Of a stretch of 36,387 nucleotides of DNA, positions 13,504-36,387 are shown in pieces. Source of the stretch: Opitutaceae bacterium (GTDB lineage Bacteria > Verrucomicrobiota > Verrucomicrobiia > Opitutales > Opitutaceae); assembly GCA_024711005.1 (NCBI GenBank), contig JANJTQ010000246.1, positions 1-36,387 on the forward strand. Reading direction: 5' to 3'. The stretch's first letter is position 1. Each line of letters begins with the position of its first letter. Both the position numbers and the translations under genes were made by a program. The notes beneath the pieces are model-generated. The model was given only the letters and a program-made list of their open reading frames with translations. It was not told the origin of the DNA and did no database searches.

Positions 13504-14556
13504 TCACGCGGGGATGCAGCCGCGTCGGGCCATCGCTTCCGATCGATTGGAAATCGTCGGGCCGGGCGACCATTCGCAACCGATCGAAACGCTTTTTCGA
13601 ATCTTCGGAATCCCGTATTGATTCGTGCTGAGTTCACTCGCCACCAACGCCACCGCGGACGCACCGATGCCGCCAAAATGGTGATCCACCCCGGCGATGT
13701 TTTTCGCCTGGTCCAAACGCAACAGCGCAAAGCCGCAATCCTCCGGCACACGGATGCCCGCCGACGTCATCCACTGATGGACCTCGATGAACGAGAGCAC
13801 GACATCCGGCCGGTGTTCCTCATACCAACGCAAAAATGTCTCCCGGTTCCAATCGTCGGTCAGCATCATCGGCACGCGATTCCGAGCTGGGCTCGGCTGG
13901 GTCTCCACGATTTGCGCCCCCTGCCAGCGGTGACCGCCCCGAGTGTTGTCGTTGGCGGAAACACACAAGCCGATGCGCCGGTAGCCGCAGGCCGTCAGCT
14001 CCCTCCACGCAAGGCGCAAGACCTCCCATTGATCGACGGACACCCGATGCAGCGGCGGATTGAGCAGGGAATGCCCGCAACAGGCGACGGCGAAATGCTC
14101 CCAGGCGAAACCTTCGATTTCGCCGTGCTGGAATAGCGGAGCCAGCACGATGCCCCGGATGGATTGGCTGTAGAGAATATTGCTGAGCCGCTTCGGGGTC
14201 ATCCCCGGCGTGCACAAGCTGAACTCGTCCAGCCGGTATCCCATCTGGTGCGCCTGCTCAACCGCACCTTGGTACATCTCCATCGTGCCGAGATTCGACC
14301 GCCAGCCGCCGATGGTCTTGTAGTTGGTCATCCACGCAAGCGGCTCAAGGCTGCTGGTCTTGCTCACCCGCAAACGCCCCATCAACTCCGACACGGCCGG
14401 ATCGGGCCGGTAGTCCAGTTTGTCCGCAAGCGCACGGATCTTCAGCCGGGTGGCCGGAGCGATTCCGCGCTCGCCGCGCAATGCACGGGACACGGTCATC
14501 TTGCTCACACCGGCGGCCTGCGCGAGATCGGTAAGGGTGGTGCGGGATTTGTTCAT
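13504..14556 (-). CDS. LacI-family transcriptional regulator, tandem copy 1
   Basis: This is 350 residues. The helix-turn-helix at about 7-27 reads TLTDLAQAAGVSKMTVSRAL, followed by the hinge DYRPDPAVSELMGRLRVS and a sugar-binding-protein-like effector domain. It is closely related along its whole length to the next gene at 14676-15809; blocks such as SLEPLAW, YRLDEFSLCTPGMTP, FQHGEIEGFAWEHFAVACCG and HRVSVDQW are shared. The start at 14556 places the helix-turn-helix at the N-terminus, as is normal; an ATG 20 codons upstream would add an unrelated head. The 119-bp gap to its twin shows no obvious palindromic operator. The target and ligand are unknown. Confidence 0.9.
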   Translation of the reverse strand: MNKSRTTLTDLAQAAGVSKMTVSRALRGERGIAPATRLKIRALADKLDYRPDPAVSELMGRLRVSKTSSLEPLAWMTNYKTIGGWRSNLGTMEMYQGAVEQAHQMGYRLDEFSLCTPGMTPKRLSNILYSQSIRGIVLAPLFQHGEIEGFAWEHFAVACCGHSLLNPPLHRVSVDQWEVLRLAWRELTACGYRRIGLCVSANDNTRGGHRWQGAQIVETQPSPARNRVPMMLTDDWNRETFLRWYEEHRPDVVLSFIEVHQWMTSAGIRVPEDCGFALLRLDQAKNIAGVDHHFGGIGASAVALVASELSTNQYGIPKIRKSVSIGCEWSPGPTISNRSEAMARRGCIPA

Positions 14557-14675
14557 CGCTCGTGGCAAACTGGCATGCCTGTAACGGCGTCGAATACAGT
14601 GATCGCCGGCGTTCAACGCAACTCACGTTCCACGGCCCTGGCAACCCACACCCTCGCGTCAGGGCGTCATGGCAT

Positions 14676-15809
14676 TCATCGGACGCCCGCCACGCGTCGG
14701 ACGGTGTCGAGGTGGGCCGATCCCGGATGCCTGCGAATGGTGAAACCATCCTGCCACGTGCATTCGACCGATACGCTCTTTCGAATTGCCGGAATGCCAT
14801 AGTGATTCGTTGCGAGTTCACTCACCGCCAGGCTCACGGTCGAGGCGCCGATGTCGGCGAAACGATGGTCGACTCCCGCCATGTCGGTCGCCTCTTCGAG
14901 ACGCAACAAGGCGAAACCGCAATCCTCGGGCACACGAATGCCCGAGGTGATCATCCACTGATACACCTCGCCCAAGGACACCACGACGTCAGGCCGGTTT
15001 TCGCCATACCACCGACGGAATGCCGCCTTGTTCCAGTCGTCCGTCAGCATCACGGGCACGCGATTCCGCTCCGGAATCAACCGACTCTCCACGAGCAAGG
15101 CTCCGTGCCACCGATCGCCTATGCGACGGTTGTCGTTCGCGGGAATACAGAACCCGATGCGTTCGTAGCCGCAGGCCGTCAGTTCCCTCCATGCAAGCCG
15201 CAACACATCCCATTGATCGACGGACACGCGATGCAGCCGCGGGCTAAGCAACGAGGGCCCGCAACACGCGACGGCAAAGTGCTCCCAGGCGAAGCCTTCG
15301 ATTTCACCGTGCTGGAATAGCGGCGCCACCACTATTCCGCGGATCGACTGATTATAGAGAATCGTGCTGAGCCGCCTCGGAGTCATGCCGGGAGTACAAA
15401 GGCTGAATTCGTCGAGCCGATAGCCCATGCGACGGGCCTGCTCCACCGCACCGCGATACATGTCCATCGTCCCCGGGTTCGATCGCCAGCCACCGATCGT
15501 TTTGTACGTGGTCAACCAGGCGAGCGGCTCGAGTGAGCTCGTCTTGCTCACCCGCAATCGCCCCATCAATTCGGACACCGCAGGATCGGGCCGATATCCC
15601 AGTTCCTCCGCCAGAAGGCGTATCCGCTCCTGGGTCGCCTTCGCGATACCCCGCTCACCGCGCATTGCTCGCGAGACAGTCATCTTACTCACGCCGGCCG
15701 CCTCCGCGAGATCGGCGATCGTGACGCGATCCGCTCCTGTTGACGCCGATCCACCCGATCCGCCGGAGCCTGGCGCGATTCCGGTCAATCCGGATGAAGA
15801 GGTTTTCAT
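14676..15809 (-). CDS. LacI-family transcriptional regulator, tandem copy 2
   Basis: This is 377 residues with a Gly/Ser-rich head of about 27 residues that its twin lacks. The helix-turn-helix at about 29-49 (TIADLAEAAGVSKMTVSRAM) is followed by GERGIAKAT, then the hinge LGYRPDPAVSELMGRLRVS and the effector domain. The recognition region GVSKMTVSRA-RGERGIA is the same as in the gene at 13504-14556, so the two probably read the same or very similar operators. Effector domains are similar but differ at scattered positions, which could change ligand response. The two genes point the same way and form a tandem duplication. The gap of 224 bp up to the ccoI stop (15810-16033) must hold its promoter, but I see no clear element there. 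Confidence 0.9.
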   Translation of the reverse strand: MKTSSSGLTGIAPGSGGSGGSASTGADRVTIADLAEAAGVSKMTVSRAMRGERGIAKATQERIRLLAEELGYRPDPAVSELMGRLRVSKTSSLEPLAWLTTYKTIGGWRSNPGTMDMYRGAVEQARRMGYRLDEFSLCTPGMTPRRLSTILYNQSIRGIVVAPLFQHGEIEGFAWEHFAVACCGPSLLSPRLHRVSVDQWDVLRLAWRELTACGYERIGFCIPANDNRRIGDRWHGALLVESRLIPERNRVPVMLTDDWNKAAFRRWYGENRPDVVVSLGEVYQWMITSGIRVPEDCGFALLRLEEATDMAGVDHRFADIGASTVSLAVSELATNHYGIPAIRKSVSVECTWQDGFTIRRHPGSAHLDTVRRVAGVR

Positions 15810-16033: not shown

Positions 16034-18508
16034 TTACCGCTTCCAGACGGAACGCATGCCCCAGCCCACGATCGCCAACGTCGCGAGCGAGCTCAGCGGC
16101 ATGAGAATCGCCGCGATCAACGGGTTCATCCGCCCCGACACCGCCATCCCGACCGCGAGCAGATTGTATGCGATCATGAATACCAGCAGCGCGATCTGGG
16201 TGCGATGACGCGCATCGTTGATTTCAAACAACGCCCGAATGCCCGCGATGCCGCGTCCGAGATAATAAAAGTCCGCTTTCTGTGCGAGCACGCCGCGATG
16301 CACCACGGGCGTTCCACGGCACAACGCACGGTCAAATGCCAGACTGTCGTTGGCACCGTCGCCCAGCATCAGTGCGCCGTTGTCGTTCCCGAACCAGTCC
16401 GCCTTCTCACGCGGCGAAAGTTCCGCGTGTCCGCTGTCCGGAGGCAGCCCCAACTCGGCCATCAACGACGCCACCTTTTCGCGTCGGTCACCGCTCAACA
16501 CCACAATCTCCAACCCGCGCCCCGCGAGCGCCCCCAGTTCCGTGCGCGCATCGGTCCGCGCCCTATCCTCAAACCCAAACCGCGCCACCGCCCGCCCCCC
16601 GTACGCCAACACCACATCCCGCTCCGACGTCTCCGTTTCCGCCCGACCCGGTTTGTCACTTATTAAGTGACAAACTTGGTTTGGGGTTTTTCCTCCAATA
16701 GCTTCGGCATCTTCAAAAATGCCGAATCGGGGGCGTCCCAGCGTCCAATTGCCCAACTTTACGCCTTGGCCGATCTCTTCCGTGACTTCGCCCGCCATGG
16801 GCTCGCCACCGCCTCGCGAGAGTAACGCTTCGTGCAACGATCGGCTCACCGGATGCGGATTATCCCGCACCAGCCCCAACAGCGCCGCCCGTCCTTGGTC
16901 GTCCAATGCGTCGAGCGCCTCCGGATTCTGCAGCACCGGTGTCTCCAACGTGAGCGTCCCCGTTTTGTCGAACACCACGGTGCGCACGCGCCGCAAGCGC
17001 GCCCACAAATCACCGGCCCGCACAAACACGCCGCGCCGCCGAAGCGCCACCGTCGCCGCTTCCTCCGCCAACGGAAACGCAAGCCCGAGCGCGCACGGAC
17101 ACGATACCACCAACACCGCCGTCACCACCGCGCCCGCATGCATCAGGTCGCCCGTCGCCAGCCCCCAGCCCAGCCCGGACAACGCCGCCACCGCCAGAAT
17201 CACGATAAGATAACACCGGATCACCCGCTCGATCAGCCGATGCCGGCCTTCCTCGCGCACCGCCGGTTTCAACAGTTCCGCCAGCAACGAATCGTCCCAC
17301 GCCTGTGTCGCCACCAAACGGATACAATCCAGTCCGATGTTCTGCGCCCCCGCCGGTATCCGTTGATCCGCGCGAAATGTCCGCGGCTCCGCCTCGCCGT
17401 TGATCCAGGCCAGACTCAACGCGGCCTCCGCCGTTTCCAGACGTCCCTCGACCGGAACCATCGCGCCCTTGGCGACTTCAAATCGCTGGCCGATGCGCAG
17501 GGTCTCCGGAGCCGCCTCGCTGGTCGTACCGTCTTCGGCGATCACCCGGACCCGCGGGGGCGTCGGTTGGCGGCTGAGCAACCGGCGACGATTGCGTTCC
17601 ACCGCGGCCACCTGCGCCCAACGTCCGACGAGCATCAGCACGATGAACGCGCTCACAAAATCGAAATACACATAACGCTCCTCGGAACTCAGCCAGCCGT
17701 AAAGCGATCCGGTGTACGCGCCGATGATTCCCAGCGCGATCGGCAGGTCGATATGCAGCACCCGTTCGCGCAGCGCCCGCACCGCCTTCGCGATAAAATA
17801 CCCGCCGCCGGCCAGCAGGCTGAGTGTGGCGAACGCCAGTTGCAGCGTGCCGAACAACCGCGCGTATTCATACGTGCTCTCCATGCCGAAATACGTCGGC
17901 AGCGCGAAGAGCATCACGTTCATCGCAAAGGCGGTGCACAGCCCGACGCGGCGAATCAGCACGCGGCTCTCGCCTTGCTCCGCGTCGGACAAACCGGCCG
18001 GGCCCACCAGGTAGTTGAAACGTTGCAAGGTACGCGCGCACTCGACCGCGTCGAAGCCGCCTTTCTCCCAGAACCAGCGCATTTGCCCGGTCTGCGCATT
18101 GATCTCAAGTCGTCCGGCACCGGGTTGTTTCGTGAACAATTTCTCGATCAGCCACACACAGCCGGCGCACGAAATGCCCTGCACTTCCAACACGAGAGTC
18201 GGCGCGCGTCCGTCCGGCGTCGTCGCCTCGGCCCCGCGTTGAGCCTCCTGCAACCACCCGTAGTCACGCGGTTGCAGCAGCGCGGGATCCGCCGGCACGG
18301 TCACGTCGTCCTTGATGCGATAATAGGCGTCGAGTCCTTCGTCATGCACGAGCCGGTAGACATACGCGCAACCCGCGCAGCAAAACTCGTCATGGGGCGA
18401 CGGCGCTCCGCAGTGGCGGCAAACAGGCTTTTTCGGAGCAGGAGTCCACTGCGACTCATGAGATTCGGAGGATCGGGTCTCTGAATCCTTCGTCGCACTT
18501 ACCGGCAT
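16034..18508 (-). CDS. ccoI: CcoI, copper-type P1B ATPase for cbb3 oxidase assembly
   Basis: This is 824 residues. Domains in order: an N-terminal cysteine-rich metal-binding segment (C30, C33, C43, C44, C47), a heavy-metal-associated domain with CAGC at 114-117, membrane helices from about 185, and an actuator loop with INGEAEP at 369-375. Then come the ion-path motif CPC at 470-472, the phosphorylation site DKTGT at 514-518 (Asp514), HP at 552-553 in the nucleotide domain, and GDGAND at 716-721. It exports copper towards the periplasm for CuB loading of the oxidase. Its start overlaps the SafE-type stop by 10 bp, so the two are translationally coupled. Residues about 610-621 (NQVCHLISDKPG) are encoded by a palindromic repeat inserted in frame in the nucleotide-binding domain. 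Confidence 0.93.
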   Translation of the reverse strand: MPVSATKDSETRSSESHESQWTPAPKKPVCRHCGAPSPHDEFCCAGCAYVYRLVHDEGLDAYYRIKDDVTVPADPALLQPRDYGWLQEAQRGAEATTPDGRAPTLVLEVQGISCAGCVWLIEKLFTKQPGAGRLEINAQTGQMRWFWEKGGFDAVECARTLQRFNYLVGPAGLSDAEQGESRVLIRRVGLCTAFAMNVMLFALPTYFGMESTYEYARLFGTLQLAFATLSLLAGGGYFIAKAVRALRERVLHIDLPIALGIIGAYTGSLYGWLSSEERYVYFDFVSAFIVLMLVGRWAQVAAVERNRRRLLSRQPTPPRVRVIAEDGTTSEAAPETLRIGQRFEVAKGAMVPVEGRLETAEAALSLAWINGEAEPRTFRADQRIPAGAQNIGLDCIRLVATQAWDDSLLAELLKPAVREEGRHRLIERVIRCYLIVILAVAALSGLGWGLATGDLMHAGAVVTAVLVVSCPCALGLAFPLAEEAATVALRRRGVFVRAGDLWARLRRVRTVVFDKTGTLTLETPVLQNPEALDALDDQGRAALLGLVRDNPHPVSRSLHEALLSRGGGEPMAGEVTEEIGQGVKLGNWTLGRPRFGIFEDAEAIGGKTPNQVCHLISDKPGRAETETSERDVVLAYGGRAVARFGFEDRARTDARTELGALAGRGLEIVVLSGDRREKVASLMAELGLPPDSGHAELSPREKADWFGNDNGALMLGDGANDSLAFDRALCRGTPVVHRGVLAQKADFYYLGRGIAGIRALFEINDARHRTQIALLVFMIAYNLLAVGMAVSGRMNPLIAAILMPLSSLATLAIVGWGMRSVWKR
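16651..16675. repeat. 25-bp perfect palindrome inside ccoI, shared with the 35579 element
   Basis: Arms GTTTGTCACTTA (16651-16662) and TAAGTGACAAAC (16664-16675) flank a central T. The identical 25 bp occur at 35588-35612. Flanks here are only partly complementary (CCGACCCG on the left, TTGGTTTGGGG on the right). On the ccoI strand it is read in frame as V-C-H-L-I-S-D-K. Confidence 0.85.
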
Positions 18509-27331: not shown

Positions 27332-28690
27332 ATGTCGTTAATCCATGAGTCCGCCCGGGCGACGCCGGTCTGCCACGAAGCCGATCTTTGCGTCATCGGC
27401 GGCTCATGCACCGGGGTCTTCGCCGCGGTCCGGGCGGCCCGGCTCGGTCTTTCCGTCGCGCTCGTTGAGCAAAATACCCTCCTCGGCGGCATGGCGACCG
27501 CCGCCCAAGTCAACGAATGGCACTCCGTCAACGACACCTCCGGCACGCGTCGCATCATCGGGGGACTCACCCTCGAAATCGTCGAGCGCCTCCGCCATCG
27601 CGGCATCCTCCAGGAAATCGCCCCCGTCCATCGCGGACAATTCCGCTTCAACAGCGCCGAACTCGCCGTCGAACTCGACGACCTCGTACGCACCCATCGT
27701 ATTCGGGTGTTTCTCGCGGCACGTTGCGTCGCCGCCTCGCGCGTCGGATCGCGAATCACTTCCGCCATCATCGAGGATCGCTCGGGCCGGCGCGCCATCA
27801 CCGCCCCTCTTTTTATCGATGCCTCCGGTGACGGCGACTTGCTCCGCCACGCCGGTTTCGTCGCGGAAAAGCCAGCCGTTCTCCAACCCGTCAACCTCCA
27901 GGCCATCGTCGCCGGCTTCGACGCGTTGCCCTCTTTGCCCGAGTGGTCCGATCTGCAACTGTTGCTGGCCGCGCACGACTACCCGGAGGCCAACAGCCGT
28001 CCCTGGCATTTCCCCGTTCCCGGCGCGCCCGCCCTGCGCAATCTGTTCGGTGCACGCCTCAACGGCGTCGATGCCGGCGATGCCGACGCCTACACCGCCG
28101 CACTCTTCGAAGGCCGTCGCCTGCACCGCGCCTATCTCGACATCGTCCGCACCCGCGCCGCGTGCGCACCGCTGCCCGTCGTCGCCTGGGCGCACGCCCT
28201 CGGTGTCCGCGAAACCAGGCACGCCCACTGTCATCATCGTCTCACCGGTGACGAAATCCTCCACGGTCGGGTCTTCGCCGATTCCATCGCTCAAGGCACC
28301 TACCCCGTCGATATTCATTCCGTCGGCGGCACCGTCTTGCGCTACCTCGACGGATACGAAGAACGCCTCTCGCGTCACGGCACGACGACCCGGCACCGCT
28401 GGCAACCTGACGACGCGCCCGTCCCTGCCTGTTATCATATTCCCTACCGATCGCTCCTCCCGCTTGAGGCCGACAACCTCCTCGTCGCCGGGCGCCTCCT
28501 TGATGCCGATCGCGAGGCTTTCGGCGGCGTGCGCGTAATGGTCAACATGAACCAAACCGGCGAAGCCGCCGGCGTCGCCGCGGCCCTCGCTCTCCGCGCC
28601 TCCTCCGGCTTCCCCGCAGTCCCCCCCGCCACCCTCCGCGCCGCCCTCAACACCGGCGGTTCCCTACTCCTCCCCCAAAGCAAAGAGTAA
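27332..28690 (+). CDS. FAD-dependent oxidoreductase, tandem copy 1
   Basis: This is 452 residues of the PF12831 type. The N-terminus reads HEADLCVIGGSCTGVFAAVRAARLG, a dinucleotide-binding fold with GGSCTG at 23-28; the usual GxGxxG has Ser in place of its second Gly. LLGGMATAAQVNEWHS follows, and near the C-terminus are LVAGRLLDADREAFGGVRVMV and NQTGEAAGVAAALAL, the second FAD-binding region. The substrate is unknown; relatives occur beside carbohydrate genes in Verrucomicrobia. The ATG at 27332 is chosen because MSLIHESARATPVCHEAD lines up with the first residues of the next gene (MRIIQEPARDIPVIHEAD); longer in-frame starts would run through the regulatory repeats. It is paired with copy 2, 40 bp downstream. 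Confidence 0.85.
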   Translation: MSLIHESARATPVCHEADLCVIGGSCTGVFAAVRAARLGLSVALVEQNTLLGGMATAAQVNEWHSVNDTSGTRRIIGGLTLEIVERLRHRGILQEIAPVHRGQFRFNSAELAVELDDLVRTHRIRVFLAARCVAASRVGSRITSAIIEDRSGRRAITAPLFIDASGDGDLLRHAGFVAEKPAVLQPVNLQAIVAGFDALPSLPEWSDLQLLLAAHDYPEANSRPWHFPVPGAPALRNLFGARLNGVDAGDADAYTAALFEGRRLHRAYLDIVRTRAACAPLPVVAWAHALGVRETRHAHCHHRLTGDEILHGRVFADSIAQGTYPVDIHSVGGTVLRYLDGYEERLSRHGTTTRHRWQPDDAPVPACYHIPYRSLLPLEADNLLVAGRLLDADREAFGGVRVMVNMNQTGEAAGVAAALALRASSGFPAVPPATLRAALNTGGSLLLPQSKE

Positions 28691-28713
28691 CCCAATAGGT
28701 TACTCTTCGCTTT
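28677..28713 (+). terminator. Hairpin at the end of FAD gene 1
   Basis: AAGAGTAACC (28683-28692) pairs with GGTTACTCTT (28698-28707) over a 5-nt loop; with one mismatch the stem extends to 28677 and 28713. It includes the stop codon of the first FAD gene and is followed by TTTCC. It may lower readthrough into the second gene. Confidence 0.5.
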
Positions 28714-28730
28714 CCTCCCTCCCGCCGTCC

Positions 28731-30086
28731 ATGCGCATCATCCAAGAACCCGCCCGCGATATTCCTGTCATCCACGAAGCCGACGTCTGCGTCCTCGGTG
28801 GCAGTTGCACAGGCCTCTTCGCCGCCCTCCGCGCCGCCCGTCTCGGCGCCCGCGTCGTCATTGTCGAAAAGGACAATTGCTTCGGGGGCATCGCCACCAC
28901 CGCGATGGTAAACGTCTGGCACACTCTCTGGAACACCAATGGGACGAAACAGATCATCGCCGGCCTCACCGAGGAGGTCATGGATCGTCTCGACCGTCGC
29001 GGAGCCGTGCAACGTCACGAAAAGACGAATCCCTCCCGCGGGTTCACCTTCAACTCCGAAGAACTCAAGATCGAACTGGATGAACTCGCCGGTGAAGCGG
29101 GCCTGAAGATCTATTTTCACACTCAATTTGCCGCACCCGCGCCTATCATCGAAAATGGCCGTCTTGCCGCCGTCTTCGTCGAAAACAAATCGGGACGCGG
29201 CGCGATCCGCGCCCGCGTCTTCATCGATGCGACCGGCGACGCCGACCTCGTCTCCCGCCTCGGTTGCGAGACGTATTTCGCCAACCACCTTCAGCCCGCC
29301 ACCGCCTGCGCCCGTTTCAGCGGATGGAACAGCCTCGGCGAAACCGCCCGCCGGGTCGGCGAACTCATCCGTGAACACGGTCCCGCGCATCGCATCCCGC
29401 CCACCTTCTCCTGGGGCAATTACGTCCCCAACTCCGACAACTACATGCTCGCCGCGACGCGCATCCACGGGATCAACCCAGCCAATGCCGACGACCTCAC
29501 TCACGGAGAGATCGAGGGCCGCCGCCAGGTCCGCGCCATCATGGACATCCTTCGCGCCGCCGCGCCCGCAGCACGTTTCGGCCTCGAAGCCCTCCCCTCG
29601 CGCCTCGGTCTGCGCGAGTCCCGCCACATCCGCTCTCCGTATCAACTTACCGGAGACGACGTGCTCTCCGGCCGCGCCTTCGACGATACGATCGCCCAAG
29701 GCAGCTACCGCGTGGATGTGCACCACCAGAACAAGCCCGGCATCACGCTTCGCTACCTCGACGGCACCGAGGAATACTGTCAGCCCGGGGTTCCCAACAC
29801 CCGCAGCCGCTGGCGGCCCGAAACCGCGACCAACCCCACGCATTACCAAATCCCCTACCGCACACTGCTTCCTCTCAGGGGTCCGGACAACGTGATCGTC
29901 GCCGGCCGCATGCTGGACGTGGACCCGATCGCCCACGCGGCCGTGCGCGTCATGGTCAACATGAACCAGACCGGCGAAGCTGCCGGCGTCGCCGCCGTCC
30001 TGTCGCTCGAAACCAACCAGCCTCTCCGCGATCTCAACATCGACACCCTTCGCGCCAGACTCGTCGCCGGCGGCTCGGCGCTCTGA
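28731..30086 (+). CDS. FAD-dependent oxidoreductase, tandem copy 2
   Basis: This is 451 residues of the same family as the gene before it. It has HEADVCVLGGSCTGLFAALRAARLGARVVIVE with the same GGSCTG at 23-28, then CFGGIATTAMVNVWHT. The middle has FIDATGDADLVSRLGC, and the C-terminus has VIVAGRMLDVDPIAHAAVRV and NQTGEAAGVAAVLSLE. Middle segments (FTFNSEELKIELDEL, RLGLRESRHIRSPYQLTGDDVLSG) keep pace with copy 1 (FRFNSAELAVELDDL, ALGVRETRHAHCHHRLTGDEILHG), showing a tandem duplication with considerable divergence. It is probably cotranscribed with copy 1, subject to the hairpin between them. Substrate unknown. Confidence 0.88.
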   Translation: MRIIQEPARDIPVIHEADVCVLGGSCTGLFAALRAARLGARVVIVEKDNCFGGIATTAMVNVWHTLWNTNGTKQIIAGLTEEVMDRLDRRGAVQRHEKTNPSRGFTFNSEELKIELDELAGEAGLKIYFHTQFAAPAPIIENGRLAAVFVENKSGRGAIRARVFIDATGDADLVSRLGCETYFANHLQPATACARFSGWNSLGETARRVGELIREHGPAHRIPPTFSWGNYVPNSDNYMLAATRIHGINPANADDLTHGEIEGRRQVRAIMDILRAAAPAARFGLEALPSRLGLRESRHIRSPYQLTGDDVLSGRAFDDTIAQGSYRVDVHHQNKPGITLRYLDGTEEYCQPGVPNTRSRWRPETATNPTHYQIPYRTLLPLRGPDNVIVAGRMLDVDPIAHAAVRVMVNMNQTGEAAGVAAVLSLETNQPLRDLNIDTLRARLVAGGSAL

Positions 30087-34798: not shown

Positions 34799-35563
34799 AT
34801 GCTCGCACGCGAAACGTTTTTTATCTGGGCGCCGCCTGAGGCCGTCTGGTCGCCCTGGGCCAAACCGGTCCTGTTCTCCGACCTGGCCGAGATGCCCAAT
34901 GGAATCCCCGGAGGCGTTCCCCCGCTTCCTTCCGAAGAGGTGCCGTGGCTTTCGGTGTTTGGCAGTCGCACTGCGTTCGTCGTCGATCTGGCCGGTGAGG
35001 CGGCGATCATTCGCGGCCTTCAACTCGCGCAACACGGCTACCGTCCCGTGCCGCTGTTTAACACCTCACGCGCCGGATCGGAAGTGGTGCCCACGCGCGA
35101 AATCATCGCCGGACTTCACACGGGCCGCGGGGTGCTGTCCTCGCTTCACCTTCCCGTTACCGCGCCGCCCGCGTTCCTGCTCGATTCGGGACGACTGCCC
35201 CACCGCATGGCCGTCTCGCCGGGTAACTATGACAACCGCTGGGTGGTGTTGCCGCAGGATTTCCCTTCGGGCGGACGCCTGCGCAAACAAGGCATCGACA
35301 CGGTGCTGCTCTGGCAGATGTCCGGTACGCAACCCCTCGATGACCTCGCGCATGTGCTGCGGCGCTGGCAGGAGGCGGGCCTGCGGGTTTTCGTTAAGTG
35401 CGGGGCACTCGCCCAGGCCCCGGAGTTGATCACGGTCAAACGACCGAGCCGTTTCCGTTCGGTGTTCCACCGTTTCTTCGTGCTGATGGGATTGCGGCGC
35501 AGCAGTGCGGGCGGCTTCGGCGCCGTCGTGCCCGAGCCATCGCGAAACCGCGGATACGGATGA
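34799..35563 (+). CDS. Unknown protein, third gene of the DUF350/ATP-grasp set
   Basis: This is 254 residues. I do not recognise a family. It is not a membrane protein and has no signal peptide. It begins with an aromatic-rich stretch (ETFFIWAPPEAVWSPWAKPVLFSD), and a central section includes VVDLAGEAAIIRGLQLAQHGYRPV and ALRPAF-like hydrophobic strands (PAFLLDSGRLPHR), followed by WVVLPQDFPSGGRLR and DTVLLWQM. It reads like an alpha/beta globular domain. The last 45 residues are basic. The 24-bp spacing from the ATP-grasp gene and a terminator-like palindrome 15 bp after its stop mark it as the last gene of one operon, so it is likely to work with the ligase, for example as substrate or partner. 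That role is inference. Confidence 0.65.
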   Translation: MLARETFFIWAPPEAVWSPWAKPVLFSDLAEMPNGIPGGVPPLPSEEVPWLSVFGSRTAFVVDLAGEAAIIRGLQLAQHGYRPVPLFNTSRAGSEVVPTREIIAGLHTGRGVLSSLHLPVTAPPAFLLDSGRLPHRMAVSPGNYDNRWVVLPQDFPSGGRLRKQGIDTVLLWQMSGTQPLDDLAHVLRRWQEAGLRVFVKCGALAQAPELITVKRPSRFRSVFHRFFVLMGLRRSSAGGFGAVVPEPSRNRGYG

Positions 35564-35578
35564 GCAAAACCGCCTGCC

Positions 35579-35621
35579 CCAATCCGGGTTTGTCACTTAT
35601 TAAGTGACAAACCCGGATTGG
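35579..35621 (+). terminator. Perfect 21-bp-arm palindrome acting as terminator; shares 25-bp core with ccoI insert
   Basis: The arms 35579-35599 and 35601-35621 are exact inverted copies around T35600; CCAATCCGGG lies at the outer end. CTTTTCC follows on the plus strand. It sits 15 bp after the stop at 35563 and before the convergent gene ending at 35664. The central 25 bp (35588-35612) are identical to 16651-16675. Confidence 0.8.
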
Positions 35622-35663: not shown

Positions 35664-36387
35664 TCAGACCAGTTCGCAGGCACCGCCGGCGCAGGCAACG
35701 ATGTCCTTGAGGCTGGTCTCGTCGGTGTGTTCGCGAAGCTTGGTGTAGTCCACGTGGCGCGGGCGCAGGGAGTTCCACTTGGCGATGTCGGCATCCGTCA
35801 TGACTTCCTCGCGCGGGGCCTGGGCGTACGCCTTGTCTCCCGCCTCTTGGAGCAGCGACACACCCGTAAAGAGCGCGCGGTTCGCCCAGATGAAGTCGGC
35901 CACGGCGTCCCACTCGTCGGCACGGACCGTGCACGTGTTCGACACGTTGTGGTGCAGGCCGGCGGAACGTGATTCCGGATCGCCGCCGGGGATCACCCAG
36001 GACTGCTGGACGAGCATCACCAGTTGGAGGAACTGAAGCGCGTTGAGATCCTTGCGCAGGATCGCGCCATCGGGGGCCTTCACCGGGAACGTGATCACGT
36101 CGTCGGTCTGCGGACTGTAAACCGAGGGCTCGGTCATCTGTGCGTTAAACGACTTGAAGAACGCATACACCGGCTCCTTGCGGTTCGCCTGCACGCGACG
36201 GAAATAGTTGCGCGCGTGGTGCGGGTGAATGCCGGAGGCGGCGTTGAGCAACAACGACGCGGTGCCCTCGGGCTTGCAGGTCGTGAGCTTGGCGGCGGGA
36301 CGAATGCCGATCGTTTCGGCCACAAGCCGGTTCGTGGCGCGGCAAAGGTGGGCGCCGTTGCGCAGGATCTCCGGGTCGAACAGCACG
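35664..36387 (-). CDS. Class II (B12-dependent) ribonucleotide reductase, C-terminal part
   Basis: The frame is open to the window edge, so the start is missing; about 240 residues are visible. They match the C-terminal part of adenosylcobalamin-dependent reductases: TTCKPEGTASLLLNAASGIHPHHAR (substrate-binding loop 2 region), NYFRRVQANRKEPVYAFFK, VITFPVKAPDGAI, HHNVSNTCTV, and GVSLLQEAGDKAYAQAPREEV. The protein ends CAGGACELV; a cysteine pair near the C-terminus fits reactivation by thioredoxin-type partners, although the spacing (CAGGAC) is not the usual CxxC. It converts ribonucleotides to deoxyribonucleotides. The reductase class is inferred from sequence similarity; the Cys and radical-site residues proper lie outside the window. 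Confidence 0.85.
   Translation of the reverse strand, partial: VLFDPEILRNGAHLCRATNRLVAETIGIRPAAKLTTCKPEGTASLLLNAASGIHPHHARNYFRRVQANRKEPVYAFFKSFNAQMTEPSVYSPQTDDVITFPVKAPDGAILRKDLNALQFLQLVMLVQQSWVIPGGDPESRSAGLHHNVSNTCTVRADEWDAVADFIWANRALFTGVSLLQEAGDKAYAQAPREEVMTDADIAKWNSLRPRHVDYTKLREHTDETSLKDIVACAGGACELV

Follow-up and report, generated by a model that had tools for sequence, protein, structure and literature searches.

Palindromic repeats inside genes have been described in other bacteria. According to Di Nocera 2013 (PMC3733652), REPs are found inside genes, Rickettsia palindromic elements (RPEs) lie in frame in Rickettsia conorii, Opitutus terrae has the most intragenic GTAG repeats, and the recB genes of two Xanthomonas species carry different REPs at about the same site. 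The Opitutaceae palindromes analyzed here, one of which lies within ccoI, resemble RPEs as presented there, being dispersed palindromic repeats that stand in frame in unrelated, likely functional proteins; the likeness drawn is one of behavior. They differ from RPEs in that orthologous sites are common to Opitutaceae species and genera while the palindromes at these sites differ. With the REP and REPIN elements of the GTAG and CGTC superfamilies, including those of O. terrae, they share short palindromes in tens of copies, inverted doublets 20–100 bp apart and intragenic copies, the O. terrae GTAG repeats being set beside them by description. Unlike REPs and REPINs, the Opitutaceae palindrome is of odd length and nearly perfect, has no GTAG or CGTC tag above background, and has no RAYT neighbor that we could find.

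Work on the persistence of REPINs has reportedly been published (PMC8049555). The DNA uptake sequence dialects of Neisseriaceae (PMC3630211) likewise involve a dispersed motif in a version typical of the lineage. Uptake sequences are shorter and far more numerous, with hundreds to thousands of copies, whereas the Opitutaceae palindrome is 25 bp long with up to about 100 copies. The nucleoid-occlusion sites of SlmA and Noc are palindromic, number tens per genome, and lie in and between genes but sparsely near the terminus. Our palindromes are like them in number and placement and may be like them in being sparse near the terminus, a result that is only a lead, but here the outer arms are paired, discrete classes coexist, and there is no candidate protein. 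We file the family as REP/RPE-like by its behavior and outside the GTAG and CGTC superfamilies, because tests for the tag and, in 31 Y1_Tnp loci, for a RAYT neighbor found neither. The kind is already known, since REPs and RPEs that lie in frame within genes have been published; what is unusual is the comparison of classes between species, and we found no report in the open-licence papers searched of class switching at sites shared across species or genera.

A palindrome in frame in ccoI

The window, by which we mean the whole 36,387-nt stretch of DNA that was analyzed, belongs to the source genome of this study, designated G000; the genomes compared with it are numbered likewise. Its ccoI gene (Table 1) specifies a protein with E1-E2 ATPase and HAD hydrolase domains identified by Pfam. 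As an earlier sequence-only reading had claimed, the gene contains a perfect palindrome in frame, which on the coding strand begins at the first position of codon 612 and encodes VCHLISDK (residues 612–619) plus one further base, and the same core recurs, identically, between genes elsewhere in the window. The palindrome with its outer arms in ccoI is predicted to fold at -18 kcal/mol on the coding strand and -22 kcal/mol on the other, and the intergenic copy at about -35 kcal/mol on either strand. Congener G010 has a palindrome aligned to the intergenic copy (L008/L216), the right flank alone being homologous by blast. Rfam gave no match above the gathering score in the window and eight loci.

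Table 1. Coordinates of ccoI and of the palindromes in the window.
Feature	Position	Strand	Remarks
ccoI, copper-type P-type ATPase, 824 aa	16037–18508	-	open frame and domains; stop codon 16034–16036
25-bp perfect palindrome inside ccoI, in frame, T class	16651–16675	.	center 16663 unpaired
ccoI palindrome with partly paired outer arms	16643–16685	-	43 nt, RNA folding
second copy, 43-bp perfect palindrome with identical 25-bp core (35588–35612)	35579–35621	.	between convergent frames 34799–35563 (+) and 35664–36386 (-)

In an alignment with archaeal CopA, the encoded segment falls in a loop of the nucleotide-binding domain, facing a variable stretch of that protein. A structure model of CcoI is of poor quality as a whole (mean pLDDT 57.7), its least confident block being residues 611–620, at 25. 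From the CopA alignment and this poor model we infer that the segment may form a surface loop.

Two further features of the window are recorded here. The adjacent frames 13504–14616 and 14676–15809 (both on the - strand) have a 300-nt repeat in common at 74% identity and resemble duplicated regulators (LacI-like by eye). Similar frames stand in tandem at 27341–30086, with repeats of 73–76% about 1.4 kb apart.

A dispersed family in the source genome

The proposal that the two palindromes of the window belong to a larger family was borne out. A search of the whole G000 genome (5.01 Mb, 351 contigs) with the 25-mer at up to three mismatches returned 50 forward and 52 reverse matches, far beyond the two copies of the window, while the reversed pattern gave none in the same genome and 100 shuffled windows gave none at the same threshold. 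Within the G000 loci that were fetched we distinguished 53 copies, allowing up to four substitutions over a 23-base core. Outside the core a weaker consensus extends to about ten bases outward with some pairing; at position -5, pairing was seen in 26 of 51 G000 copies against 14.5 expected after shuffling.

Copies also occur as doublets, mostly inverted and 44–76 nt apart (G000, G004, G015 and G034). A conserved doublet spacer was considered as the sign of a moving unit and set aside, since the few G004 spacers compared by eye were unalike. By eye, too, the central base showed no orientation bias in coding copies. Separately, G002 has three to four palindromes in series with a 90-nt period at C2:108235–108521 and C3:127351–127548, like a BIME array.

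Copies inside protein-coding genes

Whichever strand is read, two frames of the core are closed by stop codons and the remaining one encodes CHLISD or CHLLSD; copies in frame encode C[HN]L[IL]SD. Of the 53 G000 copies, 13, spread over 12 genes, fall within Pfam matches or between them in one open frame. These genes specify CcoI, an OGG1-like glycosylase, a YjeF/NAD(P)H-hydrate dehydratase, a DinG-like helicase, an M32 peptidase, an RsmE-like RNA methyltransferase, an HPPK-TrpE-like protein (with two copies), a histidine kinase, a class V aminotransferase, a methyltransferase, an AMP-binding enzyme and a 3beta-HSD-like protein, where OGG1, DinG, RsmE and TrpE are our own names for Pfam matches. 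The idea that such palindromes are tolerated inside proteins is thus supported, as is the likeness drawn earlier to Rickettsia palindromic elements, in so far as it concerns in-frame behavior in a dozen conserved proteins.

The count of 13 derives from frames of at least 110 aa that span a copy (63 rows, 57 distinct), 40 of which were put through Pfam together with CcoI. No Pfam family was found in 23 of these 40 frames, and many of the copies in such frames may be intergenic. Six loci with a Pfam match (L001, L003, L024, L033, L041 and L042) are not among the 13, as the palindrome lies outside the matched part; the copy in L036 was counted as internal because the AMP-binding family matched in two stretches, one of them listed.

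Two individual copies are of separate interest. At L033:1502 (G000 C218) a copy lies in another frame of an ORF with a GH20 domain, where the base that disrupts the symmetry changes the stop codon TAA to TAC, so that the frame stays open; rival frames exist at this place. At L001:979 (G000) a 17-base core of another class lies in a peptidase U32 frame, and G010 has no palindrome there and 9 nt fewer.

Distribution among relatives

A 21-base core of the T class, at no more than one mismatch, was found in 7 of the 56 genomes searched, G000 included, all of this genus. The more general core, GTNACYYANTRRGTNAC, was found in 35 of 104 genomes, again counting G000, with up to 105 copies, and 33 of these genomes are in the same family, Opitutaceae. 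The family name agrees with two of three loci matched by CcoI in a scan of genome contigs, Opitutaceae bacterium UBA4094 and Cephaloticoccus primus. The reversed control of this pattern gave 0–2 matches per genome, which places eight genomes with a single match (two outside the family and six inside) at background. Many relatives, congeners included, have no copy of the searched core. Two genomes (G057 and G080) have one exact core match each, with flanks homologous to a G000 site.

The prevailing version differs between genomes: GTCACTTAATAAGTGAC in G000, GTAACTTAATAAGTTAC in G010 and GTCACCTAATAGGTGAC in G002. At least three classes occur together in G004. A change from GTCAC...GTGAC to GTAAC...GTTAC turns the encoded H and D into N and Y; the changes take place at the DNA level, and the protein follows the DNA.

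The same positions can carry different classes in different species

At a threshold of E ≤ 1e-60, 34 of the 56 genomes searched, including G000, gave a CcoI match. Our alignment comprised 28 loci besides that of G000, with the matched genomes G009, G022, G024 and G038 left out and G001 read separately (L070). A palindrome occupies the ccoI loop in the same register in seven of the 28 loci, namely those of G004, G010 (one base off the core), G002, G012, G033, G015 (which we take to be Opitutus terrae PB90-1) and G035 (decayed), and the loop of G001 holds a palindrome of the G class. No recognizable palindrome is present in the loops of the other 21 loci, which are mostly shorter; those of G008 and G028 are long without a clear palindrome. 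In three other genera, CcoI has other palindromes (one of them decayed) in the same loop and register. The prediction of a shorter loop in orthologs that lack the palindrome therefore held for most of them, but the site is not peculiar to G000. Nor did many unrelated CcoI proteins show the same residues here, the palindromes of relatives being mostly other sequences that differ with lineage.

The M32 peptidase gene, matched in 24 of 37 genomes, has an intact palindrome at one position in seven (G000, G001, G004, G009, G010, G002 and G011), in four versions, and a decayed one in G012. The position is without a palindrome in G003, G005, G006, G007, G008 and 11 genomes of other genera. In a tree of CcoI and M32 with the loops removed, the species with the M32 palindrome and G008 form one clade with support 1.0, several inner branches being weak. 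This fits one gain at the M32 site and a later loss in G008, which has no core copy.

For the HPPK-TrpE-like gene, 14 of 26 loci were aligned. Site one is intact in seven of the 14 and site two in eight, with T, G and A classes among the species, and in G009 the gene has the G class at one site and the T class at the other. In G012 the core is broken at site one, and at site two it is intact but an arm is broken; in G008 site two has no palindrome, site one falling outside the coverage. Throughout the ccoI, M32 and HPPK-TrpE-like alignments, the register is unchanged through the class switches.

Palindromes that are perfect in G002 are found in decaying versions in its sister G012 (L149, L067 and L274), and the next relative, G008, is without a copy, so that the three genomes amount to a natural loss series.

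Site alignments can be attracted to the palindrome itself. This is avoided by a flank-only comparison, in which the palindrome and 12 bases on each side were excluded and both flanks had to be homologous at distances equal within 60 nt. Flank-only sites common to two genomes numbered 7 for G000 and G002, 10 for G000 and G004, 10 for G000 and G010, 7 for G002 and G004, 8 for G002 and G010, and 10 for G004 and G010, all of these being lower bounds, as the sites compared were 54 of 83 in G000, 51 of 95 in G004, 48 of 56 in G010 and 49 of 61 in G002. The class differs at all seven sites common to G000 and its congener G002 and is unchanged at 19 of the 20 that G000 has in common with G004 and G010; over all pairs, it is different in 22 of 22 comparisons with G002 and alike in 28 of 30 among G000, G004 and G010. 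A more permissive count drawn from alignments places a palindrome at the same place for 23 of 53 G000 sites in G010 and for 14 in G004. At alignment-shared sites, the core is 0.89–0.91 identical and the adjoining 23 nt 0.47–0.58.

With single-base variants pooled, the two arms belong to a single class at 250 of 276 sites. G004 is a genome of mixed classes, and its outer triplets agree between the arms at 42 of 51 sites, where independence would give 19.3; in the nearly single-class genomes, arm identity is only slightly above independence (G000, 47 against 43.0; G002, 45 against 44.2; G010, 39 against 35.3). Since the classes behave as units and the arms are linked in G004, exchange of whole palindromes at a standing site is favored. 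At base 3 of the core the arms are independent in the T class of G010 (29 AA, 13 mixed and 1 CC against 29.3, 12.4 and 1.3 expected), which looks like point mutation under a half-site preference and not like the copying of units. Whole-unit exchange and base-wise point mutation may both act.

The reading we prefer, with a probability of about 0.5, is that of an old REP-like family in which the sites are passed down and the units standing at them are replaced on the spot, with length and frame kept. The Opitutaceae family would consist of the GTNACYYANTRRGTNAC core of about 25 bp, extended to about 43 bp by outer arms that pair in part, and would lie between and inside genes. Many of its insertion positions would stem from ancestors of the species of the genus and some, it appears, from those of several genera. 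At any one position the palindrome would be swapped as a whole unit for one of another class in the same length and register, and each genome would drift to a prevailing class of its own. Standing, tolerated sites could thereby serve as landing places for newer copies, through self-targeted insertion or through conversion between copies, and the exchange would be carried out by some protein or replication-coupled process. Because the classes are equal in length and register, such an exchange would preserve the frame, which would explain how a palindrome can undergo renewal within a coding sequence. None of the genomes compared shows an exchange in progress.

Distribution along the chromosome

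Sampled GC skew was usable in three genomes and located the terminus at about 4.3 Mb in G015, about 0.5 Mb in G032 and, on contig C1 of G010, about 0.7 Mb; G002 gave an unclear skew, and in G072 the skew of 3-kb loci was too noisy for placement. Among the listed matches of these three genomes (48 of 56 sites in G010, 17 of 17 in G015 and 19 of 21 in G032), the terminus half holds 15 of 62 site clusters against 31 expected (combined P 2e-4), or, in the worst case, with the two unlisted G032 sites assigned to it, 17 of 64 (P 1e-3). Moving the terminus by up to 300 kb weakens the result for all three genomes (P 0.017–0.072 for G010, 0.073–0.61 for G015 and 0.019–0.073 for G032). On G010 C1 the sites leave a longest gap of 905 kb (P 0.007); those of G010 C2 and of contigs C1 and C2 of G002 are unremarkable. 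The depletion was tested after the gap had been seen, and is a lead.

The same depletion would be expected if a sequence-specific chromosome protein bound the palindromes as functional sites, as SlmA and Noc bind theirs, with the positions of the palindromes fixed by selection and their sequences following the changing specificity of that protein in each lineage. Mismatches in G000 are indeed confined to certain bases (40 in 52 copies, with 17 of 25 positions untouched; by simulation P < 5e-5, or 2e-4 without the two end positions), the independence of the arms at base 3 suits two half-sites, and at alignment-shared sites the core is far better conserved than the adjoining sequence. We nevertheless regard this reading as unlikely, given that several classes occur in one genome (G004) and two in one gene (G009), that many relatives, congeners included, are without the searched core, and that the terminus test was post hoc, weakens when the terminus is shifted and could reflect older sites vanishing faster in a variable terminus region.

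A bolder form of the idea, which we offer as a doubtful conjecture, would make the palindromes the sites of an Opitutaceae chromosome-organizing system, with positions fixed over the age of genera even in conserved proteins, sparse around the terminus, and re-written genome-wide whenever the specificity of a putative recognition protein changes. Species that lost this protein (candidates are G008 and G003) would have lost all sites, and G012 would be in the middle of such a loss.

Search for a mobilizing gene

None of 31 loci with a Y1_Tnp gene had a copy at up to one mismatch within roughly 1.5 kb on each side, 15 of the 31 coming from copy-bearing genomes, and the RAYT/Y1 transposase was on this ground rejected as a partner; a RAYT gene at a distance from the copies, or missed beyond the fetched loci, is possible. 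PF01797 does not track the palindromes, being unmatched in G029 despite 17 copies and represented by a member of 319 aa in G003, which has no copies.

Within 24 nt of the core, GTAG was found at 2 of 50 copies in G000, 4 of 48 in G010, 5 of 51 in G004 and 4 of 49 in G002, against 6, 4, 6 and 11 in windows 100 nt away; the figures for CGTC in the same order of genomes are 20, 13, 16 and 11 against 19, 17, 20 and 15. In G015, with only six copies, GTAG was found once (0 in windows 100 nt away) and CGTC five times (4).

These searches bear on the alternative that a RAYT-like transposase has inserted repeatedly and independently at the same preferred places, leaving different palindromes at the same positions. 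The REP-like doublets and arrays would suit it, as would the different REPs reported at about the same site in recB of two Xanthomonas species (PMC3733652). It would have to account for the same loci being hit among thousands of genes, with equal flank distances, in every pair of the four genomes compared, and no RAYT neighborhood was found; we hold it to be quite improbable. The possibility that the palindromes are old neutral insertions, their symmetry maintained solely by template switching inside the individual hairpin at replication, draws on the stability of both hairpins in the window and the mostly symmetric arms. If each copy is corrected only against itself, dispersed copies cannot come to agree within one genome and differ from those of another, as they do in the genome-wide prevailing classes of G000, G002 and G010, and base 3 is not corrected; we hold this account to be very improbable. 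A recent Rickettsia-like insertion peculiar to G000 would fit the restriction of the 21-base T core to this genus and is refuted as stated by the palindromes in the same ccoI loop of congeners and three other genera.

Palindromes in frame within genes are known from single genomes, whereas the Opitutaceae family can be traced from one species to another at identical codons. It thus lets one ask how a repeat changes its sequence throughout a genome without moving, and why proteins carry a palindrome.
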